Source: Apostichopus japonicus (taxonomy: Eukaryota; Echinodermata; Holothuroidea; Aspidochirotida; Stichopodidae). Taken from it: a DNA stretch of 64,000 bases. The notes under the pieces are model-generated. The model was not told the origin of the DNA and did no database searches. It worked only from the letters and a program-made list of their open reading frames with translations. Of the stretch, positions 10,624 to 43,309 are shown piece after piece. How positions within the stretch are numbered: position 1 is the stretch's first letter; each line of letters begins with the position of its first letter. The translations under genes and the position numbers were made by a program. The stretch covers positions 34,193,001 through 34,257,000 of the forward strand of contig NC_092580.1 in NCBI RefSeq assembly GCF_037975245.1. The letters are read 5' to 3'.

Positions 10624-10631
10624 TGTTCATT

Positions 10632-24111: not shown

Positions 24112-25368
24112 TCAGTTAGCGGTAAAATGCTTTCCTGGTGTATAGCCATACTTTGCTATCCATGCTTTACTGCTGCAACCTTTACAACCTCCCAGCCAAG
24201 AAGACCCGTACAAGTCGAGCGTTTCCTTCTTCTCTGGGACGCCATTTTTTAGAAAATCCATCAACAAACAAGCCGACTTGTTATATACAATTCTCCTATC
24301 AAGAAATTCGGTTTGACTGACCGTTCCAAACTTTTTCCATTTAAAGAAGGAGTTATACAAAACAGAGTTATTTGCTACTCTTTGTAAGTAGGTAGCAAGG
24401 TCTTCCATCGAATTAAAGTCATCCACATGGATAAATGAATTTGGCGGTCCTAACCTTTTGTAGTCCTCTTTCTTTGCCCCAATAACCACAGGGATGCTCA
24501 CACCTGTGCTAAGCACTTTCCAAAACTTTTCAGAAATATATTCCTCACAGCAACTATTTTCGAAGGCTAAAATAAACATGTAGTCTCGTTGTAGCCATCC
24601 ACAGTCTGAGGAACGTCGTTCACATTTAGGTGTCATGTTACCACATTTTCCAAACCTGTCAATGGGCATGTATTCTGCCAGATCCTTCACGAACTTAGTG
24701 CGATCCCAAGAAATAGTATCACAGTGACTGGACATCCACATGGCAAACTTGTGGTGCAATTTATGATAATCCACGTCGATTTCGTCATCGTTAAAGGTAA
24801 CGTAGGGTTTGTAACGGCCATAAGGTACTGAAATATCCGATTTGGAATGGTAAGTGTATGTAACGTTAAATATGTTCCTTCCAATGTTGTACTGTTTGGG
24901 CGGAATGTAGTCCATTGTTGTTAATGGGCTTTCGTCGGTAGTAAATACCCATATTTGTCGTGGTGTTCGCTTCGCTAGCAATCTCTTCCACAAGCTTTTG
25001 TCTTTAAAACCACCGGCGAATATAACCACTTTCGATCTCCTAAATTTAGAGGAATTTATATCTGCTCTCTGAAAATTAACAATTCCATTCTGACAGTCGT
25101 ATCTTTCTGGTACCATATTTTGGTTAAGCCAAAATGCTCGCAAACTGAACCACGTCCACAGATGTGTCCGATTCTTATGTTGGGTCCGATTTGAAACATT
25201 TATTGATCGATCACCAGTTGATAAATCAGTTTCAGAATTCCGAACGTCAAAGCTTGCAAACGTTCTCGAATTATAACCTCCCATTTTATTGAAAAATGTA
25301 AGAATAACACAGGCTAAAACTGATATGATAACAAAGAACAGTGATTGCATTACTTTGTAGGGCACCAT
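24112..25368 (-). CDS. Alpha-1,3-fucosyltransferase (GT10), single exon, 418 aa
   Basis: Transfers fucose from GDP-fucose to N-acetylglucosamine-type acceptors in the Golgi lumen. Short cytosolic N-terminus, one membrane segment at about residues 8-26 (SLFFVIISVLACVILTFF), then a stalk with several N-glycosylation sequons: a type II Golgi protein. The N-terminal acceptor domain has TTDESPLT and FNVTYTYHSKSDISVPYG. The donor-binding motif YMFILAFENSCCEEYISEKF is at about 263-282, then SIPVVIGA and SFIHVDDF. Length and motif order are normal and the frame is intact. ATG 25368 is chosen; the frame is open upstream to a TTG at 25401 and beyond, where CTCTATCAGCGCAG could be an acceptor for a 5' exon. 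The start is 117 bp from the large transposon. Confidence 0.92.
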   Translation of the reverse strand: MVPYKVMQSLFFVIISVLACVILTFFNKMGGYNSRTFASFDVRNSETDLSTGDRSINVSNRTQHKNRTHLWTWFSLRAFWLNQNMVPERYDCQNGIVNFQRADINSSKFRRSKVVIFAGGFKDKSLWKRLLAKRTPRQIWVFTTDESPLTTMDYIPPKQYNIGRNIFNVTYTYHSKSDISVPYGRYKPYVTFNDDEIDVDYHKLHHKFAMWMSSHCDTISWDRTKFVKDLAEYMPIDRFGKCGNMTPKCERRSSDCGWLQRDYMFILAFENSCCEEYISEKFWKVLSTGVSIPVVIGAKKEDYKRLGPPNSFIHVDDFNSMEDLATYLQRVANNSVLYNSFFKWKKFGTVSQTEFLDRRIVYNKSACLLMDFLKNGVPEKKETLDLYGSSWLGGCKGCSSKAWIAKYGYTPGKHFTAN

Positions 25369-25485
25369 GATTCCGTTTGTCACCTTGAAGATTACATACA
25401 AGGCTAGAATTAGGCAGACAACCTGCGCTGATAGAGGTGAACGCCTAATTGTATGGAATCAATGACTCGTAACGGTGGTCGATGT

Positions 25486-25599
25486 CACAGGCACTCGTAA
25501 CGTTATGTAGGTGCATAGTATATAAACACAGAGCGTTATGTAGGTGTATAGTATATAACCACGGAGCGTTATGTAGTTGTATTTTATATAAACACGGAG
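25486..25599 (+). repeat. Left terminus: inverted repeat followed by three 33 bp tandem repeats
   Basis: The terminal inverted repeat starts at 25486. From 25501 the sequence is three direct copies of a 33 bp unit (25501-25533, 25534-25566, 25567-25599), each starting CGTTATGTAG and containing TATATAA followed by CACAGAG or CACGGAG. The first copy belongs to the terminal repeat. In the Drosophila P element, transposase binds internal sites overlapping a TATA box; by analogy these repeats could be transposase sites or TATA-like elements, which is inference. Confidence 0.8.
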
Positions 25600-25799
25600 A
25601 AGGTAGGACACTCAATTCAAAACAAACGTTGCAAAGTCACCATTTTCAGAAAAAGTTACGTTCCAATTTGACCAAAACCAGCGTACTGTAAGCATTACTA
25701 GAGTACAAGATGATAACCTGCGGTAAATCTGACTACAATTTGACCTCTGTAGCACAGATGATTCGTTAATTTGCGGTCAAAATGATGAGTTGTACCGTT
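25600..25799. other. Unique sequence between the left 33 bp repeats and the subterminal repeat
   Basis: 200 bp inside the left end of the transposon with no counterpart at the right end. No feature recognised. Confidence 0.5.
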
Positions 25800-25904
25800 A
25801 TCACGACAATCTAATTCTTCTCGCCATTTTGAATGACGTCACTGGTTGGTCACGAACAATCCCATTGGAGGAAAGACGGGTACAGATGACGTAATGAAAA
25901 GTTT
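25800..25904 (+). repeat. Left subterminal inverted repeat of the large transposon
   Basis: About 105 bp that match the reverse complement of 39950-40053 with a few differences. It contains TGACGTCA (the CRE palindrome), ATTGG/CCAAT boxes and AAATGGC, so it looks like promoter sequence as well as a structural repeat. It does not extend to the terminus; about 200 bp of unique sequence separates it from the 33 bp repeats. Confidence 0.82.
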
Positions 25905-26009
25905 GAAGTGAGGTAAATAAGAGACAAGAAACCGAAAGTGAAGCCTGTTGTAATTTATATTTTCTGTACACAGCGTAAAAGCCCATAGCTGGTGAAAGTT
26001 TGGTTTAAC

Positions 26010-26243
26010 TTAAGAGCTCGAGGGAATATGTGGCGTCTGAATGCAATGCTTCAGAATTCCCATCTGACATTTAGATTCAAAAGCTGCTTCTTCATCATTC
26101 CCTTCCAAAAATGAATTGTAATATGAATAAGCCTTAATCCCAAAGGTGGAAAAACCTGCGACTTTGCAGTACGTATTGATACAATGAAGTTTCTCTATAG
26201 CATGTGATAAATTTCTCTCGTCGAAAACTTCCTTTGTACTCAA
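26010..26243 (-). other. Open frame downstream of the PHD exon, unknown
   Basis: A 77-codon frame with no ATG start (it opens at TTG), ending in TPHIPSSS. It includes CINTYCKVAGFSTFGIKAYSYYNSFLEG. The composition looks protein-like and it lies inside the transposon on the helicase strand, so it could be a last exon or the 5' piece of something lost. I recognise no domain. Confidence 0.3.
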
Positions 26244-26262
26244 TAGTCAAGGTATAGAAGAT

Positions 26263-26881
26263 CTATTGTTTGCATGTTGTGCAGTACCAATGGGTGTCTT
26301 TAAGTTCCTGCTCCTCCCCATTAAGGCCCATGCATTGATAGTGAAACCACATTGCACATCCATCACAGCAAACACAATCTGTAATACATTCCAAGAAGCA
26401 GAATCCACATGGCCATTTCAGGGTCTTTGGGTTTTTTTCCTTGCCTTTGGATTTTTCCTTCTTAGTAGGCTTCCTCTTATTGGATATTTGGTTGGAAGAA
26501 CTGCTACAGGATGCTGTCATGTCTGGGTTGGTTGATGAATGTAAGCTGGAAAGTGGGTGGTAGCTTGGAGAGCTTCTTCATATTGTTTCCTTTTCTGGGC
26601 TCTGACATTTTGATCTGCTTGCGGTGGGCTTCTTTCTTCTGAACCTTTGTAGATCTTTTGTATTCCCTCCTGAATTGTGCAGACGACATATTGATATGCT
26701 TCTGAAAAAACTGTCTAAGCTCTCTTGCACAATTATCAAACTCACCGTGTGGAAACAGTTTGTGTAACATGCTTGTCAAAGGTGGATCCGACATGATTGT
26801 CTTAAAAATAAAATCGTACATTTCATCTCCATGGGCTTTGACGGTTTGCTCTGTTTCAAGTTTCCTGACAGTGGCATCTAG
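26263..26881 (-). pseudogene. PHD-finger exon at the C-terminus of the helicase gene
   Basis: From the acceptor at 26883-26882 the exon reads LDATVRKLETEQTVKAHGDE, then a basic stretch (KVQKKEAHRKQIKMSEPRKG). A one-base shift between 26521 and 26504 is needed to continue into KRKPTKKEKSKGKEKNP and a PHD finger. The finger has the C4HC3 order: CGFC, CVCCDGC, WFHYQC and WYCTTC. PHD fingers commonly read histone H3 tails; in a transposon protein it could direct targeting to chromatin (inference). The frame ends with CKQ-TAG at 26263. A TIR element sits exactly at the acceptor. Confidence 0.7.
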
Positions 26882-26883
26882 CT

Positions 26884-27986
26884 CAGGCGCGTATCCAGGG
26901 GGGGGGGGGCGTTGGGGGCGCGCGCCCTCGGGTTAGAAAAAGAGGAGAGAAAAAAAAGGGAAGAAAAGAGGGAAAAAAGAGGGGGGGAAAAGAGGAGGAA
27001 GGAGAGGAAGGAAGGGAAAAGAAAAAAGAAGAAAGAGAGAAAAAGGAGAAAAGGAGGGAGTAAAAGAAAAACGCCAAGACACCGGGAAGAGAACGAGGAA
27101 CAGTGACATCATCACAGCACTGATCCCTATTATATACACATGGCCGGGTAGCCAGTGAGGGGTCGAGGATTTTGGAAGGGCGTGCGCCTCACCCTACCCT
27201 TATACCGACAACTCCATTTTTGACGTTTCCATTTTTCCTCTCTCACTAATGTATCTATATATATATACTATATATGGTCTATCATAACGCGTGTGTGTGT
27301 ATGGACGCCTTAAACAATTGTGCTATGAAAACAACTGTGGCAGGTCTCGACCGAGTCGTCGGCCGGGGAACATGACGCATTTCGGGAAGGGCGACTGCCT
27401 CCCCCCCCGCCCCTGAGCATATTTGTTTATGATATCGCTAGTAATTTCAAAATAGAAAATGCTTTGATGAAACTTACAAGGCATGAGAAATGTCATTTCC
27501 AGCGATGTGGGAGGCATTTTTGGGCAAAATTTTCTTGTACGCTTCGCTCCAACCCATGGTTCTGGGTAGTGCCATTTCCAGCGACCTGGGAGGCATTTTC
27601 GGCCAAAATTTTCTTGTAAGCTTCGCGCCAACTCGTGGTGGCGCTACGCTTAGATAGTTTGCCTACAGGCTTCGCCCCTCCATTGGATCGCCTGTTCGAA
27701 TTTGTAAAGCAAACAGCAGATATCACATCATATGAGTGATCATGAAAATGGCGGTTCCAGGATGAACAGCCTCAAAACGATGTGTGTAGTCATAGGAATC
27801 CAATTTGATTTTGGGGGATGTAACGACTTGCCCGGAAAATATCACCTAAATTTTTCGCGCGCTCCGCGCGCATTCAACATGTTAATTGTTCTTGTACGCT
27901 GCGCGCCAACTCATGGTGGCGCTTCGCTTAGATAGTAATTCGCCCCACCCCCCCCCCCGGGTTAAAAAATCCTAGATACGCCCCTG
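26884..27986. mobile_element. Non-autonomous TIR element at a splice acceptor
   Basis: Termini CAGGCGCGTATCCAGG and CCTAGATACGCCCCTG form an imperfect inverted repeat. TAGCT flanks both sides (26879-26883 and 27987-27991), a 5 bp duplication. The inside is a mosaic: a 130 bp purine-rich block (26937-27070), TA/TG microsatellites, and three copies of the CTTGTACGCTTCGCGCCAAC-type core shared with other elements here. Taking it out would rebuild a GTAAGT...TTCTTCTGTCAG intron of about 35 bp between the linker and PHD exons. Confidence 0.8.
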
Positions 27987-28022
27987 TAGCTGACAGAAGA
28001 ATTGAAATGTATCATTACTTAC

Positions 28023-28627
28023 ATGGCAAAGGCTATCTCTTAAATTATTTTTCCTTTGGATTCTGCAAGTGATGGTTTGTCACATGAAGTTTCATTTATA
28101 CTTGCAGCAGTTACTACAAGCATGTCCAGCAGCTCCACTTGTCTGTGTGTGGTGTTTACAAACTCCTTGGCTTTTGGACTGTACATATGCCTTCTCACTG
28201 CCTCTCTCTTCCTGTGCCTCACTGTGGCCACACACCACCCAGCAATATACCGCAACTTAGATCTGCCACCATCAAAGGTGTCAAACACCTTCTGTGCCTC
28301 TCTATCTGCAGCATCCTTTATCTGTTTAGTTGCATTTGTAGTAACAACTTCCCGAACTTTGCAAGCAAGGCCAAATGCCAGCCTAGATTGTGTCTTCTCG
28401 AAGGTGGTGGTCAGAAAAAGTTGCTCCACATGGCCACGGTAGGCTTCAGATCCCAAGTAGTTGTTGAAGGAGGCATAGAAAGTGGAGCAGTTGTGATTTT
28501 TGGAGTTGCCTAGTGGTACAAGTGTTTCAAAGAGGCTTTTAACTGTGTTGTAGATTTTACTCATAAAAGAGTCGGCGATGCTGATGCGGGATCTCAGTAA
28601 AGTGATTTGGTTGTTAAGGTTTTCCTG
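28023..28627 (-). pseudogene. Continuation of the helicase frame: linker region of unknown function
   Basis: In the same frame as the helicase and directly after its TAG, the sequence reads QENLNNQITLLRSRISIADSF and onward through GLACKVREVV, FDGGRSKLRYIAGWC and HRKREAVRRH. I do not recognise a named domain. It stops at TAA 28042-28040, but 17 nt later there is a GTAAGT donor (28022-28017). Shifting by one base in the GGAAAAATAATTT run would remove the stop and leave the exon ending in phase 0, which is what the PHD exon at 26881 needs. I infer one protein, helicase-linker-PHD, with a nonsense codon and a one-base indel. Two separate genes remain possible. Confidence 0.55.
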
Positions 28628-29379
28628 CTACTTTGTTAGGACAATCTTACAGGTCATGGCATCTAGTAAGTCTGTTGTTTGAAAAGGCAATGTGTCACCT
28701 GCATCCCCTGTTAGTACCTTCTTGTACATATCCATGAAGTTTAGTAATTCTTCATCACTGTCAGGTTCTTTCTCTTCATGACAACTTGACTGAGGGGTGA
28801 AATCTGCTGCCTTTTGTTCAACTTGATGCAAGCTGTCCACATTAACTTGGCAGCAGTGAAGCGTATCCTTCATAGGGGTTGATTCAGAGTCATAGAATTC
28901 TCTGATTTCTCTTGGTTGTGGCTTAAGTAGGTTCAGCTTAAAATGTGTGACATGTAGACCATCTTTGGATTGTGCTCTTTCAATTGCAACTCCGATCTGT
29001 CCTGGAAATGTCATATGTCGACAGTCTACTTCTAGTCTCTTAATAGACATTCCCTGGGCCTTGTGGACTGTCATAGCAAAAGCGAGTGCCAGTGGTAGCT
29101 GCTTTCTGCTTGCAACATCCTTTCCTTTGTCTGCAGAAAAGACTGTAAATCTAAAGGGATGAACATTAGTTGTACCATCCAATCCGTTAAATTGCACTGT
29201 TACATGGCTGGTGTGCATATCCTGCACAATCCCTCTTAGTCCATTCACTAGTGTTCGTGTTACGTTTGCTGTCAGGATAACAGGAGCACCCACCTTCAGA
29301 TGTAACACCGGTAGTGCCACACTTCTTGACAGCGCTCTTATGTCGCCATCGCCAATTCCTTTGTAACTCTTCATAGTGC
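28628..29379 (-). CDS. PIF1-family DNA helicase, exon 3 (C-terminal motor half)
   Basis: The exon starts after a TTTGTATCATTGCAG acceptor and reads TMKSYKGIGDGD, then LHLKVGAPVILTANV, LVNGLRGIV, a central insert, LALAFAMTVHKAQGMS (helicase motif V) and GQIGVAIERAQS (motif VI with the arginine finger). That order and spacing match the C-terminal half of PIF1/RecD-like helicases. After the motor an acidic tail (DSDEELLNFM) runs to a TAG at 28630-28628. The same frame continues open beyond this TAG into the next entry. The unit A counterpart would lie left of the window. Confidence 0.82.
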
Positions 29380-29471
29380 CTGCAATGATACAAATATGAG
29401 TATTTAAAAATGTGCATAATATTTATACCAGCACAAGAGATTAATGGCTTGCAATGTTTACCCTCTGTCAG

Positions 29472-30468
29472 GTTGACAGAGAGAATCACAATTGAACCGA
29501 GCGGTTATGTGGCATTCAGGGAGCTTATGAAGGAGAGTAGCCCAAAGTCAAAGAAACAACTGGCCACTGCCTTACAGAAACTATTCCAATTTGCCAAGAA
29601 AGGAAGAAAGCAGATTGGTGGGATATCTGTTTTGGTTTACCATGGCATCTCAATGATTCAGAAGGAAAACGTTATCCCCAATGAAGAACTTACATTGCAA
29701 CTACAGGAACTGACAAAATTTATTCAAGCTGATGTCATCTTGGTATCCTGTTCACCAGAGAAACTTGAAGTAAGTGTTAGCTCCTCAATGTTTGTTGATG
29801 GTAACATGGTGATGAAAGACATACAAATATGCGATGGCACTTGGACGCTGAAGGTGAGAGGTCGTTCCATAGACATCGATAAACTTGATCTTGACAGCAG
29901 ATTTGTTTGCACTGAAAGAGGCTTCTTGAAAACAATTGACATTGTTCGGAAACTATCGCGTTGCAGAGGATTTCATCTGATTGAGCCTAGGGAAGAATTA
30001 CGTTACTTTAGGGTAGAAAAAATTAGATCAGAGATCTCCAGCACAGACGTAACGGTCATACGATCAAGTTACTGCAAACAGGTCCTTTCATGGGCAGCTA
30101 CTTCAGGTATTTGTACCTGCTGTAAGAAACTACCTTCGCTGAACCTAGGGAAAGATGTGATATTAGATGAAGATGATGACAGCGACATATCCAAGATTTT
30201 GGAGAGCTATTTCCCAAATGCATCACCTGAGATGAAAGTACTTCTGAAGTCACAACATGGTGCCCTTAAAACGAAAAGTCCAAATGGCAGAAAGTGGGAC
30301 AAGGAAATCATCAGTCTCTGCCTATCACTTTGGTTGAGGAACCCACAAGCGTACCAGGACTTAAAAGATAGTAATTACTTGGTTCTACCATCTGGACGTC
30401 ATCTTCGAAGATACAAGAACATAGTGAAGCAGCGGAATACAAGAAGCAGTATTTCATTGGATGTATGA
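29472..30468 (+). CDS. THAP9/P-element-like transposase, N-proximal exon
   Basis: After a TACCCTCTGTCAG acceptor the frame reads LTERITIEPSGYVAF and continues 330 residues. A CTCC/CCKK pair near residue 235, an acidic patch (DEDDDSD), then KWDKEIISLCLSLWLRNPQAY and LVLPSGRHLRRYKNIVKQ match the conserved block ahead of the RNase H-like core in P-element and THAP9 transposases (aromatic, ...AY..L, LPS...L.R). No THAP DNA-binding domain is seen, so 5' exons are missing or lie elsewhere. The frame slips by one base at about 30460 into the next piece. Confidence 0.72.
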
Positions 30469-30727
30469 GGCAGCTAATGATGCTCACATAGCTCCTGATG
30501 GCAGAGCTGGCTTACTGAACCATGATGAGACCAAAATTCAGGAAGATCTTGTTATAGAAATGGATAATGGCAAACCAAACTTGATTGGTTGGGTAGATAG
30601 TGGTGTTGAGTGCAATAACCTCAGAACATTAAAAAGCATGGCTGTATCTCAGGAACTAGCTACAGAGGTGTTTTTGGATGCAAATTGTCACGAAACTGAT
30701 GAAAAACTTGAAAATGACAAGTTATAG
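30461..30727 (+). CDS. P-like transposase, start of the RNase H-like core
   Basis: This continues the preceding piece after a one-base shift: HWMYEAANDAHI, then LLNHDETKIQEDLVIEM, a PNLIGWVDSG turn and LKSMAVSQELATEV. The DE.....DL segment followed by LIGWVD is the first catalytic-aspartate block of P/THAP9 transposases. The family pattern then runs directly into a strand ending FLGFTGF, which is found only at about 31840, so homology stops around 30670 and resumes 1.1 kb later. Confidence 0.7.
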   Translation: MYEAANDAHIAPDGRAGLLNHDETKIQEDLVIEMDNGKPNLIGWVDSGVECNNLRTLKSMAVSQELATEVFLDANCHETDEKLENDKL

Positions 30728-31786
30728 TAGCTACATTAGGATGAAATGTTATAGATTGAAAAGATATTTTATCTTTCTTACAATCTTTTAAAAGTTGAAC
30801 TTTTTTTTGAAATATTTAACGTGTACAATACGGTACAAGTGCTGCGTGTTTTAGTTTATACGAAAATCTTGGCAAGTTTCCAAAAAAATGTTTCTCATTA
30901 GAAAATCTTGGCAAGTTTCCAGAAAAATTTCTCGTGACACTAGATCAACACCCACTATGAATTGGTTGCGTTCTTATAACCCTATAGTTATATGTAGCAC
31001 AGGTGCATCTTCGACTATACCACTACTGTCATGTGTACAAGTAACAATCAGTACAAAGGTCAACTTGTGTAAGTTTGCTATGCGCAGGCTTTCGTCGAGA
31101 ACGGCGATTCTTAAAACTTTGCACAGAGAAGTTGTATAGAATATGTGTGATAGCAGAAACGAAGTCGTTCGAACTGAAGTCAAACTCATACGATAGAAGA
31201 CACTTAAACAGTATGCGTTTACGAACGTTACATACAAGAAAAAAATGTGGACGACAATAAATGGTTATAAACATTTCCCGTGATGCTGATAATAAAATTC
31301 GGTACAACAGCGATCTTCCCGCGCCGGGCCGTGTGACACACACCTGGTAGTGTGAGAAAGAAGTCGTTGACGTTACCATTGTGAGTAGGTTGGGATTTGG
31401 GAACGCTCATCATTTACCGCGAATGGCACTTTTACATTCACGAAGCATGTTCACGTGCCCTATAGTTAAGCTAGATTTTTTCCATTGACTTCAGTGTGGT
31501 ATTAGGCTACACACAATCATGGGATGTCAGTATTGTGGAAGGGGAATGATATCGAGACCAATTGTACGGCAATACACCAAGTTACAATGAATGCGAACAA
31601 TAGACCATTGATAAGTTGCGACGGACTGTGCAAGTAAGCTCCTATTAATAAATTTCTGTCACTCTTTCTTGCTGCTAAGAAAGCCTATTGTTACGTGTTC
31701 GTAGACCCAACCCACGGCTGTCTCATTAACTTGCCAAGTGAAGCACTGTGGTCACTGGGCCGTGAAGAATATTCAGTAGCAGCACA
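30728..31786. other. Unassigned sequence splitting the transposase core
   Basis: About 1 kb between the two halves of the transposase core. There is a short direct repeat (GAAAATCTTGGCAAGTTTCC at about 30863 and 30901) and an open frame at 31695-31910 (PTHGCLINLPSEALWSLG) that I do not recognise. It could be an intron with weak splice sites or an old insertion; no inverted repeats or target duplication were found. Confidence 0.4.
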
Positions 31787-32730
31787 GTGGGCAGCAGATT
31801 TGCGTGGCACCAGGCGCGGACTAGATTTGGCTATGCTCCCTTACAAGTTTACTTTCTGGGGTGTACAGGATTTCGGTGGCCAATCTGTCACTTTCCAACT
31901 TGTGGCGTGAAAGCATCTGAGTTGTATGTGATGCTGTGGGATGTCATTGCAAAGCTACAAGATTGGGGATTTACAATTGACTGTATTTTGCAGGATGGTG
32001 GAGCAGCAAACAGACAATTTATTAATTTACATTTTAGTAAGGTACCAACAGATAGTAAGTATCTTGCGGCAAACATTGTAAATCCATCAAGAGTAGTGGC
32101 CATGTGCCAGGATTTCTCACATATTGTTAAGAAGATTAGAAATGGCATGATGAAGAGCGGTGATCACCCATCACCCATCAAAACACGTAAACTTCAACTC
32201 AATGGAAATTATATTGTATGGCAGCAATGGATAGACGCTGTTAAGTGGGATCGGAAAGTTAACAGCAGACCTATTCATCAGAAGATTTCCGATTCACACT
32301 TATTTCCTGATTCGTCTGAGAAGATGAGGAATCACCTGGCCGAGGAAATGCTTGATGCAGATGCTTTAAACCTCCTTAAATATTACAGAGCAAGCTTGAT
32401 GAACGGAAATGGTCTCGATAGCACAATTGAATTGCTGGAAACAACCAGTAAAATTATTCAAATCTTCAGAGATAACCGGCCAATTAAGGATGTACATGAT
32501 GACAGAATTGCCACTCTGGGTAAAGCCTGCAAATTTTTTCAAGATTGGAGAAACTGTGCTCTGACAAATGTCCATGTCCCTGACAAAGAGAAAAGAAAAT
32601 GCATCCCCTCAACAGAATGCTGTGATGACATCGAATCTCTCCTGTTGTCATTCCAGAGATTTGCCGGATTCATCTGGAGGAATATCCAAATGGATACATT
32701 ATACCATCTCGTTTTAATTCTGATATTATT
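31787..32730 (+). pseudogene. P-like transposase, core to C-terminal part, unit B
   Basis: Recognisable from about 31838: FLGCTGFRWPICHF, LYVMLWDVIAKLQDWGF, DCILQDGGAANRQF (second acidic block), CQDFSHIVKKIRNGM (the D..H..K.IRN block), WQQWIDAVKWDR, MRNHLAEEML and LDSTIELLETTSKI. This is the order in P/THAP9 transposases. The frame loses one base at about 32652 (GTCATTCC against GTCATTTCC in unit A) and is cut at 32730 by the LTR retrotransposon. The last segment continues at 38145. Confidence 0.8.
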
Positions 32731-32979
32731 TGTTATATATTAAGAGTTTAGTAACATGTGCAAATAAAAGAAGTTTGTGTGCAATATGTAGATCGTGTGC
32801 ACACCACCCTAAGTATTATGAAAGGCCATGCATACCAATGTATTGTATTCTAATAATGTAATGAAAATAAACTACTCAGACACACTCAGGCTGTTGACCA
32901 CGAAAGACCGTCTCCGGGTACTCTATATGTCTCTCTTGGAACCTTTCGGTTTTGTTTACACCTTTTCCAAGATATAAAA
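32731..32979 (+). repeat. Left LTR, unit B
   Basis: 249 bp; lacks three bases (CTCTATATG against CTCTATAATATG). It is followed by the presumed primer site TTGGCGACGAGG. Confidence 0.92.
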
Positions 32980-33031
32980 TTGGCGACGAGGATGCTGTTA
33001 AATAATATACGCTAAACAAGCCAACGAAATA

Positions 33032-33688
33032 ATGGCTGTTTTTGGCCATGTCGGAGTTTTCGACGAAAAGCTGGAATTGTTTGCAGATTACGCAGATAGA
33101 TGTGACGCTTTCATCGCAGCGAATGATGTAGCAGAGGAAAAACGTGCTAAGTTTTTCCTTGCTGTGGTGGGTGTAATCGCCTACAGATTATTGAAAGATT
33201 TATGTAGTCCTAATCTACCGAACACTAAGAGTTACGGAGATTTAAAGAAACTACTACAGGATCACTATTCACCACGTTCAATCGTCATCGCAGAAAGACA
33301 TAGATTCTGGACAGCTACCCAAGGGGAGAACGAATCTATATCATGCTTCATAGTCAGACTCAAAAATGTAAGTGCCCATTGCAATTTCGGGACCTTTTTG
33401 GAAGAAGCCCTACGTGACCGTTTGGTTTCTGGATTACATGCCAAAATGTCCAAAACTCAAACGCATCTACTATTTGTGGCTGATCTAACTTTTGACAAGG
33501 CTAAAAATAAATGCTTAGCTGATGAAATGGCTTATATTGCTACCAAAGATTACCTGCATACAACTAATATAGACGCAACTAATGCCGTGTATAGTGGACA
33601 ACCAACCCATCGCTTCAAAGGCAAAGCTCATGGCAGTCGAGGCTCATTTCGTTACAAATGTAAGGGCTGTGGAGGTGAGTACAAGTGA
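33032..33688 (+). pseudogene. gag: Gag of the LTR element, unit B
   Basis: 98% identical to 643-1299, with the same Gag blocks and the same TGA inside the first zinc knuckle (CKGC-GGEYK-stop). Here the knuckle histidine is changed to tyrosine. The second knuckle is damaged downstream, because HLQRVC is replaced by a deletion (CATACATGGTCACC). Confidence 0.9.
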
Positions 33689-34019
33689 GCTGATTGTCCA
33701 TACAAGGAAGTTACGTGCCATAACTGTAAACGGAAAGGTCACATACATGGTCACCACATGGTTCCAGTGAAAGTACCAACACCAGGAACAGAGGAGGGTT
33801 AAGACCAAATAATTTAAAAGCGGGACATGCTAATACCTAGCACGTGGCCGATGGCAATCAAGGAGGCAGAGGACAGCGTGTATGTTGATGGCGTTCAGGA
33901 TGAAAGGTACCAGTCTGAAGGTTTTGGACTATACAATGTCACTAGTAATTACAGTGTGTCACCTTACAGGATTCGTATGTCGGTAGGGAAAGGGAAAGCA
34001 GATAATATTTCTATGGAAA
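33689..34019 (+). pseudogene. Zinc-knuckle remainder and protease start, unit B
   Basis: Corresponds to about 1300-1650. The MEIDTG active site at about 34012-34029 is followed by the same TAG as in unit A; protease continues in a different frame from 34020. Confidence 0.72.
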
Positions 34020-35552
34020 TTGACACTGGTTACTAGGTCAACGATTTCAGAATCTGCTTACATGTCAGAGTTAGCCAATATGTACCCTTTAAAGAAGTGT
34101 GATTTTGCTTTACGCAGTTATACAGGTGAGCTAATTCCTACATTAGGCTACGTTATTGTACCTGTTAAGTTTAAGTCTAGAACTTCCCACCTGGCTGATA
34201 TCATTGTTGTACAAGGTAAATGCCCATCTTTGTTTGGTCGAGATTTATTGCAAAAGATAAACTTAGATTGGAACCAAATATTCAATGTGAAATCCGAACC
34301 GCAGTTAAGACAAAAAGGTCAAAATCATTTGGGTGACATTGGTGCTTTAAGAAAATCTGAAATTGTGCTTCCTACTTGCCAACCTTGTGATCCTGAAGGT
34401 TTTCGTGAGCTTCTAGAGAAGCATCGTAAACTATTTTCTGATAAAGATACAGTGATTAAAGATTTTACAGCTTCTCTGAAATTAAAACCGAATGCAAAAT
34501 CGACTTATCAAAAGTCTAGAGCCGTTCCTTATTCCATGGTTGACAAGGTGGAACAAGAATATAAAAGGCTAATTGAAGCAGATATCCTAACCCCAGTAAC
34601 GTCTAGTAAGTGGGCGTCCCCCACTGTACATGTACCTAAAGCAAATGGATCTGTAAGGGTCTGTGGAGACTACAAACAGGTCAATGGTGTTATTGAAGAT
34701 GATGGGTATAGGCTTCCTAATGTGCAAGATTTGTTTGCGAAATTGGCCCAGGAAGGCTCACAACCCAAAGTATATTCTGTAATCGATCAAACTGGTGCAT
34801 TCAATCAATTGTTCTTAGATGCAGAATCGGCGCAGTTGCTAGTTTTGAATACGCATAAAGGTTTATTAGCTCCTAAGCGTCTCTGTTTCGGCGTAAAAAC
34901 GGCTCCTGTGCTATTTCAATCCACTATGGACAAAATATTGACGGGTATTCCTCATGTATTTTGTTATGTAGATGATATCCTTGTTGCGACAAACAATGTC
35001 GAAGAACATCTTAAGATTCTAAGACTTCTGTTCGATAGACTTGATAAGTATAATGAGCGCTTAAATGCAAGCAAATGTCAATTCTTCAAACCACAAGTCC
35101 AATATTTAGGTCATGATCTAAGCGGTAAGGGCATTCAACCAGTTCAAGACCAAATTGAAGCAATAATGCGTGCGCCAAGACCTACCAATGTTTCAGAGCT
35201 AAAGTCGCTTTTGGGAATAGTTAATTACTATGGCAAGTTTGTTGAAAATTTAGCTTCCAAACTTCACCCCTTGTATACATTGCTGCAACACAAGTCGGAA
35301 TGGAGTTGGTCCAACGAGTGTGAGCAAGCTTTCATGTATGTAAAAACTGTCCTAACAGGCGATAAAGTACTAATTCATTATAACCCTACGAAAACACTGG
35401 CATTGAGCGTAGACGCGAGTCCCTATGGGTTAGGTGCGATTATAAGCCACAAGTTAAGCGATGGTACTGAGCGTCCTATAGCCTATGCTTCCAGGACACT
35501 CAGTTCAGCAGAAAAAACCATGCCCAAATTGATAAAGAGGGGCTTGCTATAA
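34020..35552 (+). pseudogene. pol: Protease end, reverse transcriptase and RNase H start, unit B
   Basis: A 510-residue open frame: STISESAYMSELANMY and FGRDLLQKI (protease), RT core with WASPTVHVPK, VCGDYKQVNG, LCFGVKTAPVLFQ, YVDD at about residue 316, YLGHDLSG, SLLGIVNYYGKF, then RNase H LSVDASPYGLGA at about residue 461. The apparent start is inside the protease and is not a real initiation site. The frame ends at TMPKLIKRGLL-stop because of a one-base loss shared with unit A. Confidence 0.93.
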
Positions 35553-35575
35553 TATTCGGGTTAAAGAAGTTCCAC

Positions 35576-37291
35576 TTGTATCTTTACGGTCGTAAATTTA
35601 CCTTGGTGACAGACCACCAACCTTTGACCCGCATATTTGGTCCAAAGTCAGCGATACCGCCTTTAGCTGCAGCGCGGATGCAACGCTGGGCTCTCATTTT
35701 AGCGGGTTATCAATATGAGATAGTCTATCGCACTTCTACACAAAACGCCAATGCGGATCTTTTAAGTAGATTGCCGTTACAAGACAAACTAACTCAAATT
35801 ACAGATCCTGATGAATGTTATGTTTTCTCTACCGTAGTCGATCAGCTTCCTGTTACAGCTGAGACGATTGCGAAGGCCACTAACCAAGACATTGTTTTAA
35901 CAAAAGTATACGAATATACCTTGTCTGGATGGCCAAAACATTGTGAGAAGGAAGAATTGAAACCATATTGGACAAGACGGTTAGAACTTTCATTAGAAAA
36001 TGGTTGCATATTATGGGGTAGACGTGTTATTATTCCGCAACAATGTCAGCAACACATTTTAAATGAATTGCATGATTGTCACACCGGTATGTCTCGTATG
36101 AAATCTCTGGGTAGATCTTTTGTCTGGTGGCCAGGCATGGATTATGACATCGAGGACCTAGTTAGATATTGTTCTGTTTGTTCAAATGAACAGAACACCC
36201 CAAGGAAAACACCTCTAATTCTTTGGCCTTGGGCTACCGAACCATGGCAGAGAATTCACCTAGATTTTGCAGAAATTAATGGCCAACAGTTTCTGTTACT
36301 GGTTGATAGTCATTCTAAGTGGCTTGAAGTTTTCCCCATGTCGAGTACAACAGCTTCAGCTACGGTTTCCAAGTTGCGAACAGTATTTGCTCAGTTTGGT
36401 CTTCCTGTACAAGTTGTGACTGATAATGGTCCACAGTTCATTGCAGAGGAATTCAAAGGTTTTCTTCAAACTAACTCTGTTCAACATACTTTGACCCCTC
36501 CATACCACCCTTCTAGCAATGGCTTGGCAGAAAGATATGTTCAAACTTTCAAGAGAATGTTTAAGAAATCAGAAACAAAGTTTGCTTGTTTACAGCATAA
36601 GGTTGCACACATTCTATTTCAGTATAGAAATATTCCCCACACAACTACTGAAAAGACCCCAGCAGAGCTCTTTTTGAAAAGAACCCCCCGAACCAAGCTT
36701 ACACTTGTTAAGCCATCTCTAAAACGTTCGGTCGAGTACCGTCAGGCTAAATCTAAATTCTATCAAGATGGTGTAAATCCGAAAATGATATCCTTCGACC
36801 TATATCAGTCGGTAAAAGTCCGACATTTGAGAGGAGGAAAGGTTAAGTGGATACCTGGGACAATAGTTGAGGTTAAAGGTCCACAAACCTATTTGGTTAG
36901 AACACCAGGGAACAACCGTCGGTATGTGCATGCTAATCACCTTAGGCATGATGATTCTAGACGTCAAAATGCTAATCCTGAAATGGATATTGAAAATCCA
37001 AATCAGGATACCAGGTTTTCACCCAGTGCCATAAGGTTTCCTTCTGTACCACATACTTCTATGGTTCCAGAAATCAAGCCAGATCCCTCACCATCTGTTA
37101 ATACGTCTCCATCTAAAGCTTCATCTCATATTCCTATTGATTCTAAATTTCAAAACTTTGATGAGCAAACCCCTATTTCTACGCCAGCAAAAACCAAACC
37201 TAGTTCAAAACTTTCTAGTCCTGGAGATTCTTGTGTCGTAAAAACCAGGTCCGGTAGAGTTGTCCGACCACCTAAGTTTTTAAATTTGTAA
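35576..37291 (+). pseudogene. pol: RNase H end and integrase, unit B
   Basis: A 571-residue open frame in the register lost at 35552: RNase H TDHQPL and ANADLLSRLPL, then integrase with HHCC zinc residues, WWPGMD, the D-D-35-E triad (LDFAE at about 229, VTDNGPQF at about 283, NGLAERY at about 319), a GPY/F-like end and a Ser/Pro-rich tail closing with SGRVVRPPKFLNL. This is the full 3' end of pol, with none of the stops seen in unit A. Confidence 0.93.
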
Positions 37292-37539
37292 CTTTATGTT
37301 CGACAGACATCAATAGTGTATTTTTATATCATGTTTCATGATTCGGTATGTCAGTGATGTTATTGGTTTGTGTATTGTGAAAGTTGTATATTTTGATATC
37401 TCCAATAGTTTAGTCGTGTAGTATTTTTGTAGTAGATTACTTGTCAAAGTGAATTCGTATTTTCCGTTATTATTTTGCTAATATTATATGTTCGTTGTTG
37501 CAATAATAAAATAGTGGTCTCATAGCTACAAGGGAGGAT

Positions 37540-38139
37540 TGTTATATATTAAGAGTTTAGTAACATGTGCAAATAAAAGAAGTTCGTGTGCAATATGTAG
37601 ATTGTGTGCACACCACCCTAAGTATTATGAAAGGCCATGCATACCAATGTATTGTATTCAGTGGCGTAGGAAGGTACTTTTGAGTGGGGGGGGCTGAAGA
37701 CTGATGGCCGGCCTGGGGGAGGGGTCTAAGGGGAGAGGGTGTCCCCCTCCCCCTTTGGATTTTTTTTTTTGCATTTCCAGGTGGCCTCAGATGCAATTTG
37801 GTGAAATATAGCACACTCCATTTTGTAAAGAATTTTGCATTTTCACCTGGCCTTAAATGCAATTTGGTGCTCCAAATGAGATTTTTTTCTCATTTGGAAA
37901 TGAAAAAGGGGTTTTCTGACTTGCGGAGCGGGGGGGCGGAATGATACTTCCGCCCCCCCCCCATATTTTTCACTGGTGGGCTGGCGCCCCCCGGTTCCTA
38001 CGCCCTTGATTGTATTCTAATAATGTAATGAGTATAAACTACTCAGGCTGTTGACCACGAAAGACTGTCTCCGGGTACTCTATAATATGTCTCTCTTGGA
38101 ACCTTTCGGTTTTGTTTACACCTTTTCCAAGATATAAAA
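37540..38139 (+). repeat. Right LTR, unit B (interrupted)
   Basis: Right LTR split by the 350 bp element at 37660-38009 and missing ACACACTCAG-type sequence near 38045. It is preceded by the polypurine tract AAGGGAGGAT at 37530-37539. Confidence 0.9.
37660..38009. mobile_element. hAT-like MITE in the unit B right LTR
   Basis: 350 bp, absent from the other three LTRs. Ends AGTGGCGTAGGAAGG and GGTTCCTACGCCCTTGA form inverted repeats. TTGTATTC is duplicated at 37652-37659 and 38010-38017. An 8 bp duplication with CAGTGGCGTAG-type ends suggests hAT. Inside, a GCATTT...CCTCAGATGCAATTTGG block is repeated twice. No coding potential. Confidence 0.88.
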
Positions 38140-38144
38140 TTATT

Positions 38145-38341
38145 GAGAACCATTTCTGTCAACAAAGAGATCTGCATAATGGCAATGCCACACACCCTAC
38201 ATACTCTTCTTATTGTTCCACAATTAATTCTATTATTTTAGGTCAGTCACTAAAATCCAGAGGAAGAAATCAAATGCTGGTGTAGCATCTGCAAAACCTT
38301 TCAGCTTTTATGTTCATCAATCTCTAGTAAAGAAGATGTAG
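38145..38341 (+). pseudogene. P-like transposase, C-terminal end, unit B
   Basis: The 3' part of the transposase after the LTR element: ENHFCQQRDLHNGNATHPTY..., the conserved C-terminal NxFxxxR...NPT segment of this family, then ILGQSLKSRG. A one-base deletion (GGAAGAAAT against GGAAGGAAAT in unit A) breaks the tail before the TAG at 38339-38341. Exon 2 of the opposing helicase begins 62 bp further on. Confidence 0.75.
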
Positions 38342-38403
38342 TATGTATAGTGTGTTTATCTTGAAGTTAGATTTTTACAGATATTTATAATTATTAGTAT
38401 TAC

Positions 38404-38580
38404 CATTCATATTCAGTAAGCAGTCTGAGTTGACTTTCTCAACATCATAGTTAAGGGCAAATAGTTTCATAGGACGTTCCCCATGTGGTAGTGGTGTTGC
38501 CAAGGATTTCACCATATGCTTTGTTCCATTTGAGCAATCCAGGCCTTGGCTTAGCTCATGAACAGCAGTAATTAAATCCA
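38404..38580 (-). CDS. PIF1-family DNA helicase, exon 2, unit B
   Basis: A 177 nt exon between a polypyrimidine/CAG acceptor (CTTTTTCAG) and a GTAATA donor. It encodes the segment joining the two motor halves: ITAVHELSQGLDC, LATPLPHGE and MKLFALNYDVEKVNSD, matching the PIF1 pattern of a PL...LF..N..V...N block. It ends in phase 1 (AATG|), which joins in frame to exon 3 (GC|ACTATG) at 29379. This phase match across about 9 kb is the main evidence that exons 1-2 and exon 3 are one gene with the transposase in intron 2. Confidence 0.75.
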
Positions 38581-39063
38581 CTGAAAAAGATGAGCAAATT
38601 AAAAAACATGAGAAAGTGATTTCATCAGTTGCATTTGAATTCATATCAAGCTTATACACAATATGCTAATACTTAAGTTAACATAGGGTTTTTGGTTTTA
38701 ATGAAACCTACAGGTATGCCCAAAAAAAAAGCTCCTATTTCAACTTGATCAATAAGTTTGTTTCGTTAGAAACAGTGAGAAAGTCTCAGTTACTGTTTTA
38801 CTTTTCAATTTTGATTAAAATGATCATGCATGATTTACTGCACCAAGGTCATATTTAATTATTTTAAGTCTTGTAAGCAGATATGATACCTTCAAAGGCT
38901 CAAAATAGAGCTGGCAGGAAGGATAAACATTTATATATTTTTAATTCAAAATGTGTTAATGCTGATCAGTGAAAATTAAATGAGATACTGTATATAGTCT
39001 AAAATCCTATAGAAGTAAAAGTCTATCAGTAATAATGTAATGCTGTAAAATTGTGCTTCTTAC
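38581..39063 (-). other. Helicase intron 1, unit B
   Basis: 483 bp, same as 5856-6340 with small indels. No other feature seen. Confidence 0.6.
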
Positions 39064-39618
39064 CTTCATTTTGTCTGTATACTTTGGTTAAGACAAACTG
39101 GTGAGGAACAAAACTCTTCAGTAAAGTTTCACTCAATATCATGTCACCAGGATCATTGAAGTGATGGTTGGGTACTGGTTTCAGCTGAAAAAATCACCTG
39201 CAAGGATCACTTGCATGCCACCAAAGGGCAGAGATTTTCACGATCACGAACTCTTCTGCTGATGACCTCGATTTGCAGGAACACTTTTCTTAATATCATA
39301 GATACCTCATCTATGATAAGGGTATCAGTAGATATGATACCATCTCTAATTCTTTTGTAGTCGATGTTGTTTCGGATCTTATGTATGATTTCATCATCGG
39401 TATACCGTCCATCACTTATACCAAAAAAAAACATGCAGGGTTGTCCCTCCTACAGCAACTGCTGCTAGACCAGTTGAAGCAGTCATCTTAACATTTCGGT
39501 TCAATCCTGTAAGGGAATGCTCTATGGATTTGATAAGATTTGTTTTACCAGTTCCAGCTTGGCCAAGAACGAAAAAATTATGGCCCTTCTTTGCTGCTGC
39601 AACAATCTCTGATTCCAT
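39064..39618 (-). pseudogene. PIF1-family DNA helicase, exon 1 (N-terminal motor half), unit B
   Basis: PIF1 helicases are 5'-3' SF1B DNA helicases. This exon encodes the ATP-binding half: Walker A GQAGTGKT at about residues 19-26, TASTGLAA, TTLHVFF, Walker B LIIDEVSM, then (in other frames) a PFGG..VILGGDFFQL segment and FVLTKVYRQNE before a GTAAGA donor at 39063. ATG at 39618 is chosen because it precedes Walker A by the usual distance; a Q-motif-like SLTLFN just upstream is open, so the true start may be further out. Reading needs three frame corrections, at a nine-T run (minus strand), near AATCTCTGCCC and at a six-T run before CAGCTG. All three recur in unit A, so either decay predates the duplication or the same errors recur. 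Confidence 0.8.
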
Positions 39619-39949
39619 GTTGAATAAAGTAAGTGAAGCTAGTGCAGTACCATGTTATACAGGGGACCATGTGGCAATCATGCTGAAAATGTGATTCTCT
39701 TAAAATTTGGTTGTCATTTAATAACCAAATTGTTAATAACACTTTTCTTTTTCATTTACTTTGTGGGTCATTGTAGTTCATTTTACTGGATGTGTAACAT
39801 GTATATTTAACCATAACTGCTTTCTATATATGAAACGCTATTAAAAACTAAAGGAATCTTAACCACTTTCACTATCATTACAGTGTTTTGTTTTTGTTTT
39901 GTTTTTGGTCACTCGTGCCTTGTGGTACGGTGTGCTAGCGCAAATGATT
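39619..39949. other. 5' flank of the helicase gene inside the transposon, unit B
   Basis: Same as 6896-7226. It lies between the helicase start and the promoter-like subterminal repeat. Confidence 0.5.
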
Positions 39950-40053
39950 AAACTTTTCATTATGTCATCTGTACCCGTCTTCCTCCAATGGGATCGTTCG
40001 TGACCAACCAGTGACGTCATTCAAAATGGCGAAAAGAATTGGATTGTCGTGAT
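39950..40053 (-). repeat. Right subterminal inverted repeat of the large transposon (unit B)
   Basis: Inverted match to 25800-25904, directly next to the terminal palindrome. It lies about 330 bp upstream of the helicase start at 39618 and carries TGACGTCA and CCAAT-type boxes, so it is a candidate promoter for the minus-strand helicase gene. Confidence 0.82.
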
Positions 40054-40144
40054 CACAGGCACTCGTAACGTTACGTAGGTGTATAGTATATAAACACGCC
40101 GTGTTTATATACTATACACCTACATAACGTTACGAGTGCCTGTG
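40054..40144. repeat. Right terminus: 91 bp near-perfect palindrome (unit B)
   Basis: Two 45 bp arms surround a single central base and have one mismatch (ACGTAGG against CCTACAT). The outer arm is the terminal inverted repeat, so the right end is effectively two termini head to head. The DNA could form a long hairpin. Unit A has the same structure at 7331-7421. Confidence 0.88.
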
Positions 40145-40152
40145 GTCGATAT

Positions 40153-40834
40153 CTACAATAGTAGTTATTAGTGTGCAATTGTATAGAAATATAATGACAC
40201 TGGAAAGATTCAATGCTCACAAAAGTAATAATCGTTTACAATATGACAATGCAATTCTAGAGGTTTATGACTGTGTTCTATCACGTTATTCTTTTAAGGC
40301 ATGTAGGTTGATACTACTGATATAATAGCATTGAACGTACAGAACGCACGTTGCGTGAAAAAAAAAGGCTGTAATCGTCTACACGAATATCACTAGCTAA
40401 TTGAACATGTTGGTATTGGGCATATACAGGCAATATCGTTAGGCTCGTAATACCTAGGCTCCCTTGTGGTAATGGAGAGGCCATCTTTTCGAGATAATCA
40501 TGGTGTATTTCGAGATAAATCCGTGCATACGTACGTAAGTACGTACGTTAGGTTTGACGTTATATATGATAACGGATTGTGTAGCCTATATCATGTCAAT
40601 CATATGGTGTTGGTAAATCCCAATGAACAAGGTGGCTGATCTCCTAATTGTGACCATCTTGGCAAAACTGGTCACGACTTACAAAGATATCCGGTTAATG
40701 TTCGCCCAGTGTCATAACATTGTGATAAGTGAAAGACATACCAAAGGGAAATTAACACGTAGTAAACCTTGGGCGCAGACACTGATGACCGATTTTATTA
40801 GATTCATTTCAGAGCGGTCGATAAGTTCAGACCA
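40153..40834. other. Non-coding, unit B
   Basis: Counterpart of 7430-8110, no gene recognised. Confidence 0.5.
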
Positions 40835-40888
40835 GTTACATGCATAGGCGTACGAGGCGGGGGGCAGGGGGCAGACTGCCCCCCCCCC

Positions 40889-41113
40889 AAATTTCCAGAG
40901 GACAAGAAATTCGGGCAAAAGTCCTGAAAAATTCGGGCAGCCTAAGAGGAGAAAAAAATATATATATATATTTTTTTTTTCTCCTCTTAGGCTGCCCGAA
41001 TTTTTCAGGACTTTTGCCCGAATTTCTTGAAAAAAAATATATATATATTTTTAATCTCCTCTTAGGCTGCCCGAATTTTTCAGGACTTTTGCCCGAATTT
41101 CTTGTCCTCTGGA
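40889..41113. repeat. Inverted and direct hairpin cassette, unit B
   Basis: Same arrangement of TTCGGGC/GCCCGAA blocks around A/TA/T spacers as at 8165-8392. Confidence 0.8.
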
Positions 41114-41114
41114 A

Positions 41115-41148
<34 letters not shown>

Positions 41149-41153
41149 AATAT
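41112..41153. repeat. (AT)n microsatellite, unit B
   Basis: About 40 bp of AT repeat with one AC interruption. Confidence 0.92.
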
Positions 41154-41330
41154 GCAGTAGCTTGCCCGAATCTTTTTCAAATTTTTGCCCGACAATTCTA
41201 TGATTTTCTTTATTTAGCATCATGATGCCCGAATATTTCCGTGTAACACCACCGTAAGCGCAGTTCATCTGGGCTACCACGCTTTTTGCACGATCAATTT
41301 TTTTCTAACTAGTCAATTGTTTACCTGGAC

Positions 41331-41982
41331 CAAGGGTGGCGGAACCGGGGGGGCACAGGGGGCACGTGCCCACCACTTTGCCTCAGGTTAAAAATGTGCC
41401 TTTTTTCTACATAAAAATTGAGGTGCCTCAAATTAGCAAGAGACCAGGGAACCAGAATGAACACTCGGGAAGGGCCGTTTCCGGCCATCTGAGGGGTTTG
41501 TAAAACCAAAAATTTTATAGTAGCTCCGCGCCAACCGATGGTGGCGCTCCGCTCAGATAGTCGTGCATACAACTTTGCAAATCCTGGCTAAGCCTGTGCC
41601 TTTTAATGAATTTCTGTGGGGCAAACTCAAATCTATTTCGAATGGAAAAAAATTGTTACGATATTAACAAGAAAAAAACTCTAATTCGGAAGATTCCTAC
41701 ATTAGCAACTAGTATGATTTCACCTCATTTTGTCTCAAAAGAAATCTTGTTCTTGGTTTCCCAATTTGCGCATTGGATATTGCAGTGCTAGTATGCATAT
41801 TTTCCTTTGGGGGGGGGGGGCGTTGATGGAGTGATGTGTATACACAAATATGATAAAATGCAATAAGAGTTATAAAGGGTACTAAATATAAGGCTGCATC
41901 AGTCCAATCGAATTTCTGCAAAGTGCCCTTTGATGTCGGTGCCCCCCCCCCCCCCAGTTTAAAAGTGCTTCCGCCGCCCTTG
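41331..41982. mobile_element. Nested TIR element with 8 bp duplication, unit B
   Basis: Counterpart of 8655-9303, with ACCTGGAC at 41323-41330 and 41983-41990. Confidence 0.85.
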
Positions 41983-42540
41983 ACCTGGACATCCCCAACA
42001 TGAGTGTTTATAAGAAAAAAATTCTTTTTCATGGATGGTGGGGGGGGGGGGAGTGCAGGTTTATCATATTCTTTGTTATATTTTATACTTTTTTGTGAGA
42101 CAAATTGCAGTCTCACCCGACACAGCGACATTTTCCCGCCTACGTGTCGTTGAACAATGTATGTTTTCCTGGCGGTAGCTGAGTACTGTGTTAAAATAAT
42201 AAATAAGGTAACTAAATAGGAGCTTAAAAAATATACTGTCTCATTTTTCCCCTTCAAAGTGATGTTACCTGTTTTTCTTCTTCTAATTTACCAAATTTTT
42301 GGGGAAGTGTAAATTTCTAAAACGTGAGATTATAAAATAAAGAATGTTTAGATGCAACTTGCAAGGCCTCAGAAGTGCCGTTTCCGGCAATCTGAGAGGC
42401 ATTGTTTGCCCAAAATTTTCTTGTACGCTACGCGCCAACCGATGGTGGCGCTCCGCTTAGATAGTGTCACGGGAACTTTCGGGCACAAAAAGTTCTGCCC
42501 CCCCAAAACTGAAATGGTCCCGTACGCCTATGGTTACATG

Positions 42541-43301
42541 GATATAGGAAGATACATACAAAATGCTATGATGGTGGATTTCGTGTAAAGCAAGAAGATG
42601 TTCGTTTGATTCTTTAACAACTTGGCCCTGAAGAAGTATAATGCAGGAAAGGAAGACTCCTTAGGAGACGCATATTATGCAAGAGGGCCAAATTATATAT
42701 GACATGTGGACGATGGATATTCAAGAAAACTTATATGGCTCAAAGTGTATCATACCAACAACGATCCACGGTTAATATTGGGGGGGGGGGGGGTTGAAGT
42801 AGTTATTGAATGTGGAGGAAGCCCTTCTGTGGTTCGTGCTCACCGTAGTGCACGTAATATGCACTGAATATACAGTGCATATTCGGTGCATATTCAGTAT
42901 ATTCAGTGCATATGCTGAATATCCACTGAATGCGCACGTATACGTGATTTCAAAGAATTTCTTAGACCTCAGATCTTCACCTTGTCCAGCAGTGACAACT
43001 AACGTTACTGTTGCTGTCTTATTGCTACTTTTCTTGATCAGCCTTGGATTTCCTATAATGTGCACACGCCAGCACTAAAGTAGACAGTTACATTATCCAT
43101 TTCACTTTGGATTACTAAATTAATACATTATTCATATGAATTTGAAAAATCTCATTTAATTTGCTGAATGTACTCCAAATAAACTGAAAGCAAGACCGTG
43201 CCTGACTAAAAACAACTGAAATGGTAGGCCCTGCATACATAATCCGTTAATTATCCCAGACCAAGGCCTATGCATGCCAAGCATACCGTATATATATTGC
43301 A
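42541..43301. other. Non-coding with G-run and imperfect palindrome, unit B
   Basis: Counterpart of 9860-10623, with a shorter G-run near 42780-42794. Confidence 0.55.
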
Positions 43302-43309
43302 TGTTCATT

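Follow-up and report, generated by a model that had tools for sequence, protein, structure and literature searches.

A candidate P-superfamily transposon with a PIF1 helicase-PHD gene in Apostichopus japonicus

The stretch of DNA analyzed here, referred to as the window, comprises 64,000 nucleotides of the Apostichopus japonicus genome (NC_092580.1, or C20:34193001-34257000 in the 671.6-Mb, 35-contig assembly, G000, in which our searches were made). In the mitochondrial COX1 gene of this assembly (contig C35), AAA occupies conserved asparagines, ATA isoleucines and AGA serines, a code of echinoderms and also of flatworms, which makes an echinoderm the most likely host. Positions 25486-40144 of this window (14.66 kb) form one mobile unit with inverted ends of the type CACAGG...CCTGTG, in which a P-type transposase is encoded on the plus strand and a PIF1 helicase gene that terminates in a PHD finger is encoded on the minus strand. 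The unit is very likely a single cut-and-paste transposon of the P superfamily that holds both genes, as a preliminary description of the window had proposed. Parts of both genes were present in all three independent coding insertions found in a left-end DNA search, in which the best 40 of 66 candidates were scored; the protein searches described below likewise score the best candidates only.

With respect to the ends of the element, the 52-bp termini of the window copy (25486-25537 and 40093-40144) show 92% complementarity, and its target duplication, GTCGATGT on the left (25478-25485) and GTCGATAT on the right (40145-40152), matches at seven of eight positions. The tandem neighbor of this copy (L003) has GTCGATAT as its left flank and the same sequence at 7422-7429 on its right, which gives a perfect 8-bp duplication. 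The best-preserved copy, at 13.47 Mb on contig C17 (L001), is 6781 bp long, with an inverted-repeat pair at C17:13468969-13475719 and a perfect duplication of GTTGGAAC; its terminal inverted repeats form a single long pair of ~355 bp, identical at 347 of 355 positions without gaps. A further copy at 22.24 Mb on C17 (L002; 5824 bp) has its inverted-repeat pair at C17:22238244-22244037 and a perfect duplication of GTTCCGAC, and a 446-bp remnant on contig C19 (L004), too short for either gene, is flanked by a perfect duplication of GTTTGCAC. The left-end matches (the C20 pair, the two C17 inverted pairs and the short C19 copy) thus amount to four independent long-repeat insertions when the C20 tandem pair is counted as one, and three of these are coding. 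Both the inverted termini starting with CACAGG and the 8-bp duplication of the preliminary description are therefore real. When ~1.4 kb to either side of each coding locus was compared by BLASTN, the three loci shared nothing at E 1e-3, and because their duplications are distinct and their flanks unrelated, L001, L002 and the C20 insertion are products of separate transpositions.

In terms of gene linkage, whole-genome searches with the first exon of the helicase, its C-terminal part, the PHD region and both parts of the transposase all led to the same loci, namely the C20 pair and the two copies on C17. The preliminary description had raised the prospect of copies with the transposase only and of the helicase at some other locus. 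No long, high-identity copy with a single one of the genes was found among the best candidates, apart from five transposase matches of 27-32 residues at 70-85% identity that derive from a nested repeat; the absence of single-gene copies is not proven, because the searches score only the best candidates. The remaining matches were distant: P-like transposases at 25-29% identity and two more at 36%, PIF1 genes, among them that of the host, at 26-44%, and two stretches of PHD sequence (36 and 44%). Within the stretches taken, the P-like loci L021 and L023-L027 hold no close relative of the element helicase, the PIF1 loci L022, L028 and L029 hold no relative of the element transposase, and no such transposase accompanies the best helicase and PHD matches outside the family (L074-L077). 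L022 adjoins L023, and ~11 kb separate its Helitron-like PIF1, only 24% identical, from a P-like transposase.

The transposase gene is antisense to the helicase gene and fills its second intron (3367-5272 in L001). In the window it is read as an N-terminal half at 29472-30672 (+; the open frame begins at 29389, and 29472 follows a possible splice acceptor), a catalytic part at 31841-32730 (+) and a C-terminal end at 38139-38341 (+), past a nested retrotransposon. The Pfam domain TNP-like_RNaseH_N was matched at 31766-32743 (+) with an E-value of 9.9e-6, at L002:4337-4873 with 3.6e-9, and on a joined query of 788 residues, assembled from L001 and L002 pieces, with 1.9e-11. This joined protein also aligns with the Drosophila P transposase (6p5a; E 3.1e-5) over residues 463-755, a span that presumably takes in the second aspartate as well as the final glutamate, and BLASTP matched it to three further P-like transposases of the same genome at 28-29% identity (9e-31 to 3e-27). 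Elsewhere in the genome, the N-termini of the P-like transposases L024 and L025 were seen to match the RAG1 importin-binding model PF12560 above the cut-off (4.4e-10 and 9.8e-11), and that of L021 matches it below the cut-off (1.9e-3). N-RAG type elements have been described in molluscs, and these three loci are reminiscent of them.

The helicase core on the opposite strand is divided into three exons, with splice signals at 2692/3190 and 3366/5273 in L001. The first exon (39064-39618, -), whose frame is broken in the window copy, encodes what we take to be PIF1 motifs I to III, and PF05970 was matched at 39424-39600 (-) and, with 1.1e-30, on the first exon of L001. The second exon (38404-38580, -) was delimited by comparison with L001, as was the start of the third (28040-29379, -), which encodes the PIF1 2B region, the C-terminal motifs and an unassigned C-terminal region; Pif1_2B was matched at 28628-29422 (-). 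The core is followed by an unassigned region, including a linker that matches no known domain (26504-26880, -), and then by the C-terminal PHD finger (PF00628; 26263-26577, 1.6e-6), on the minus strand in the window and on the plus strand in L001 (1.8e-7). The three Pfam matches bear out the earlier reading of a PIF1 helicase running into a PHD finger on the strand opposite the transposase.

Joined across its exons, the helicase core matched solved PIF1 structures over nearly its full length (5o6b, 3.4e-62; 6hph, 2e-54; we take these to be the yeast and human proteins, respectively), and it matched Helraiser with 8.1e-17. Its identity is 34-35% to 6hph, 5o6b and the host PIF1, as against 24-25% to 10 Helitron-like helicases of the same genome, a label that denotes PIF1 in long open frames and was set by the open frame, not by a Rep domain. 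A 14-row tree, into which the host PIF1 (L039) was entered as five exon pieces, placed the element helicase with 6hph, 5o6b and the host PIF1 and the 10 Helitron-like helicases apart (100/100); the tree program warned of a long element branch, the joining of which with the Helitron side could be false. The element helicase is thus of the cellular PIF1 type and not of the Helitron kind, and the association of PIF1 helicases with Helitrons in the preliminary description needs amending for this gene. Capture of the gene from a Helitron was accordingly rejected as an origin, as the structure matches, identities and tree all favor a cellular PIF1. A recent origin by capture of the host PIF1 was rejected too, given that the human and host proteins were grouped without the element helicase in the same tree (100/99), with the long-branch warning again applying. 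The second intron of the element gene, which holds the transposase, coincides in codon position and phase with one of the host PIF1 introns, and three host introns in the region of exon 1 are lacking in the element; with one shared intron, three missing ones and the long-branch warning, we draw no firm conclusion on descent from the host gene. Scans of viral contigs with the C-terminal part of the helicase, the N-terminal part of the transposase and the joined helicase found no relative. As a separate observation, 34 of 50 genome matches to PIF1 (PF05970) lie on C17, mostly at 13-24 Mb, an unusual pile-up in which three of the 34 belong to the element and pieces of one gene are counted apart.

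With respect to selection, the observed kinds of mutation were placed at random in the same codons, with 14 bases at the border of linker and PHD finger used twice. Between L001 and the window, 36 of 58 changes in the helicase-PHD gene are nonsynonymous (43.6 expected, p 0.014), and between L001 and L002 the count is 23 of 37 (28.5 expected, p 0.026). The corresponding values for the transposase are 22 of 38 (27.6 expected, p 0.031) and 20 of 28 (21.8 expected, p 0.28). All eight out-of-frame controls, covering both genes, gave p 0.45 or above. A simpler count that disregards the kinds of mutation yielded ratios of 0.43 (window) and 0.51 (L002) for the helicase-PHD gene and 0.38 and 0.68, respectively, for the transposase. 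The helicase-PHD gene has therefore been under weak purifying selection, in the right frame and with a signal at least as strong as that of the transposase.

Several observations weigh against the reading of this unit as a two-gene P element. The evidence comes from three independent coding insertions in one genome, and every coding copy is broken somewhere, the first helicase exon of the window included; because of this, the family looks inactive in the assembly. A single deletion in L002 removes part of both genes, and the signal of selection on the transposase is weaker than that on the helicase-PHD gene. Pfam found no THAP domain in the open reading frames (ORFs) of the element or in the joined protein, where a domain split between exons could escape, and neither the GTP-binding model PF21788 (element loci and joined transposase) nor the helix-turn-helix model PF12017 (joined transposase) gave a match. 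AlphaFold models of L001:3959-5263 and L001:5230-6654 were uninformative, with mean predicted local distance difference test (pLDDT) values of 34 and 35, respectively. A six-frame scan for the C2CH pattern returned three matches, of which two cross a stop codon and one lies inside the C-terminal part of the transposase. Since no THAP domain was found, the "THAP9/P-like" label of the preliminary description is supported for the catalytic part only. The alignment with 6p5a passes through the region between the catalytic parts of the transposase, despite the lack of a PF21788 match.

Overall, the best explanation of these data is probably a two-gene P element, whose PIF1-PHD protein may act at the donor gap. 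Excision of a P element generates 3′ extensions of 17 nt, after which homologous repair or end joining mends the donor break; the factors involved include a homologue of the Bloom helicase (PMC7776569). In the scheme that we propose, the P-type transposase would cut at the termini, the PIF1-PHD protein would drive repair synthesis through the donor gap such that the element is copied back, and the PHD finger would hold the helicase on chromatin. PIF1-type helicases are known drivers of long repair synthesis, and P elements are believed to rely for their copy number on the host's repair of the gap left by excision. A putative role of the PIF1-PHD protein in gap repair is nonetheless put forward only tentatively, and guidance of insertion by the PHD finger, also raised in the preliminary description, is likewise conjectural. 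The internal deletions in L001 and L002 could be traces of gap repair that broke off, in keeping with a need for help from a helicase but no proof of it. The further step, to a P-element lineage that has assumed a task usually performed by the host, with its own chromatin-tethered PIF1-type repair helicase that turns cut-and-paste into net copying, we regard as rather unlikely; under that reading the interlocked layout, with the transposase antisense in the helicase intron, would keep the two genes together.

The PIF1-PHD gene may instead be a passenger, trapped on a single occasion within P-element termini and playing no part in transposition. We consider this quite possible, if short of probable: all copies of the gene are broken, a single family with a PIF1-PHD gene was found in this genome, and the P elements known to us get by with a transposase alone. 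A passenger gene is more difficult to reconcile with the finding that, in its true frame, the helicase-PHD gene has more synonymous change than expected against both the window and L002, with the match of the L001 helicase core to solved PIF1 structures over its length, and with the presence of the gene, though damaged, in all three coding insertions.

Two further explanations concern how the unit was assembled. A P element could have inserted into an intron of a PIF1-bearing element, the ends of which now move the fused unit, and the fact that the transposase gene fills a helicase intron is what such nesting would leave behind. However, L001 has no second long inverted-repeat pair around the transposase gene, where only palindromes of 18 and 12 bp occur, and no PIF1-PHD copy free of the transposase was found among the best candidates. 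The 8-bp duplication of the whole unit is also of the P-element type (PMC7776569), and we judge nesting to be improbable. Still far less credible is the notion that the copies are segmental duplications of one chance assembly and not products of transposition. Tandem duplication does account for the two C20 copies, but the C20, 13.47-Mb and 22.24-Mb loci differ in their duplications and in the ~1.4 kb on either side, and segmental duplication was rejected as the source of the three loci.

Read as a two-gene P element, the window copy is a 6.8-kb unit that covers 14.66 kb because of nested insertions, and comparison with L001 and L002 assigns ~7.7 kb to these later events. They comprise a ~1.1-kb repeat missing in L001 and L002 (26884-27986), a ~1.17-kb repeat in the transposase gene that is missing in L002 and the last part of which recurs elsewhere in the genome (30673-31840), and a long terminal repeat retrotransposon (32730-38138, +) that was labeled gypsy-like by eye from its ORFs. 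The retrotransposon is flanked by a 5-bp duplication, TTATT, and L002 represents its empty site. The left inverted repeat (25486-25904, +) contains 33-bp tandem repeats at ~25501-25599. On the right, the inner part of the inverted repeat (39950-40053, -) is followed by a shortened end in the form of a palindrome of two terminal copies (40054-40144, -).

The element also has numerous short derivatives. A search with the 20 outermost bases of the terminus gave 323 places with at most two mismatches, of which 100 were listed, as compared with eight places for the reversed control; at two ends each, this corresponds to up to ~160 copies. Where read, the terminus lies mostly in very short palindromic copies. 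Among 44 left termini scored, 34 had a partner and 10 did not, and the spacing of partners was 57 to 122 bp except in L001, L002 and L004. The pairing script retained the best-matching partner where several were possible, and on this basis the duplications of the 34 paired copies matched at 8/8 positions in 16 cases (13 different sequences), at 7/8 in another 16, and at 6/8 and 1/8 in one case each; many of the 7/8 cases share common flanks and are copies of one insertion within a larger repeat. A 57-bp copy with a perfect duplication (L043) suggests that ~28 bp of each end can suffice for movement. At 30 singleton places, 1.4-1.8 kb of sequence was inspected and contained no further coding element with the same ends, although larger elements with a diverged partner could escape. 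The 20-bp terminus was also observed without a clear partner, in larger repeats with common flanks, at L044, L047, L048, L049, L052, L055 and L059, which suggests that other repeats spread some of the short copies as passengers.

As for the neighborhood, most of the window belongs to a tandem segmental duplication (period ~32 to 41 kb) that takes in the transposon, the nested retrotransposon and flanking sequence. Positions 1-12447 match 32394-45126 at 98%; the blocks that follow are 93-95% alike, at offsets of up to ~41 kb. The second copy of the element lies to the left (C20:34184986-34200421), and its 3′ part, with its own nested retrotransposon, right end and duplication, occupies 1-7429 of the window. 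Directly beside the left end of the window element, an open frame of 448 residues (24112-25458, -) encodes a GT10 fucosyltransferase (PF00852, 7.9e-47).

The P superfamily is described as having 8-bp duplications, inverted repeats and internally deleted derivatives, the duplications of Galileo being 7 or 8 bp (PMC7776569, PMC10983969, PMC4168063). The Drosophila P element, zebrafish Pdre2/THAP9 and Galileo resemble the present element in the catalytic domain, the 8-bp duplications, the inverted repeats and the deleted derivatives, and Galileo does so in its long foldback-like repeats as well. Unlike the P superfamily, our element has an additional gene, for a helicase-PHD protein, on the opposite strand, and its transposase lies inside an intron of that gene, with no THAP domain detected. 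The preliminary description knew of no P element with a helicase and a chromatin-reading domain, and text searches of open-licence PubMed Central papers brought up no P element with a helicase; in other superfamilies, however, cut-and-paste transposons that bear helicases have already been published.

Kolobok transposons, the target duplication of which is TTAA, include two such cases. According to PMC9587614, KolobokH and Kolobok-1_CCri carry a RecQ helicase, which in the rhodophyte element Kolobok-1_CCri is encoded on the complementary strand. The likeness to our element lies in a cut-and-paste transposon with an accessory helicase, in one case on the opposite strand, whereas a Kolobok transposase and RecQ there stand against a P-type transposase, a PIF1 helicase and an 8-bp duplication here. 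AcademH of animals and fungi is likewise a DNA transposon with its own helicase, but it is reported to have duplications of 9 or 10 bp and an Academ transposase, unlike the 8-bp duplication and P-type transposase of our element; the helicases of AcademH and KolobokH are described by DEAD and Helicase_C domains, which are not clearly PIF1. Helitrons, with their Rep-PIF1 helicase, share a helicase of the PIF1 family with our element, which differs from them in its inverted repeats and duplications and in a helicase only distantly related to the Helitron-like ones (24-25% identity); the ORFs of the element that were scanned gave no Rep-type Pfam match. Few animal transposons have been studied as thoroughly as P elements, and a P element with its own PIF1-type helicase would make the link between copy number and gap repair directly testable. 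If the reading is correct, accessory helicases such as those of Kolobok and Academ would also have originated in the P superfamily, there from a PIF1 lineage unlike that of Helitrons. Because helicase-bearing cut-and-paste transposons were already known in Kolobok and Academ, what appears to be new here is limited to the superfamily, the PIF1 class of the helicase and the unusual interlocked layout of the two genes.

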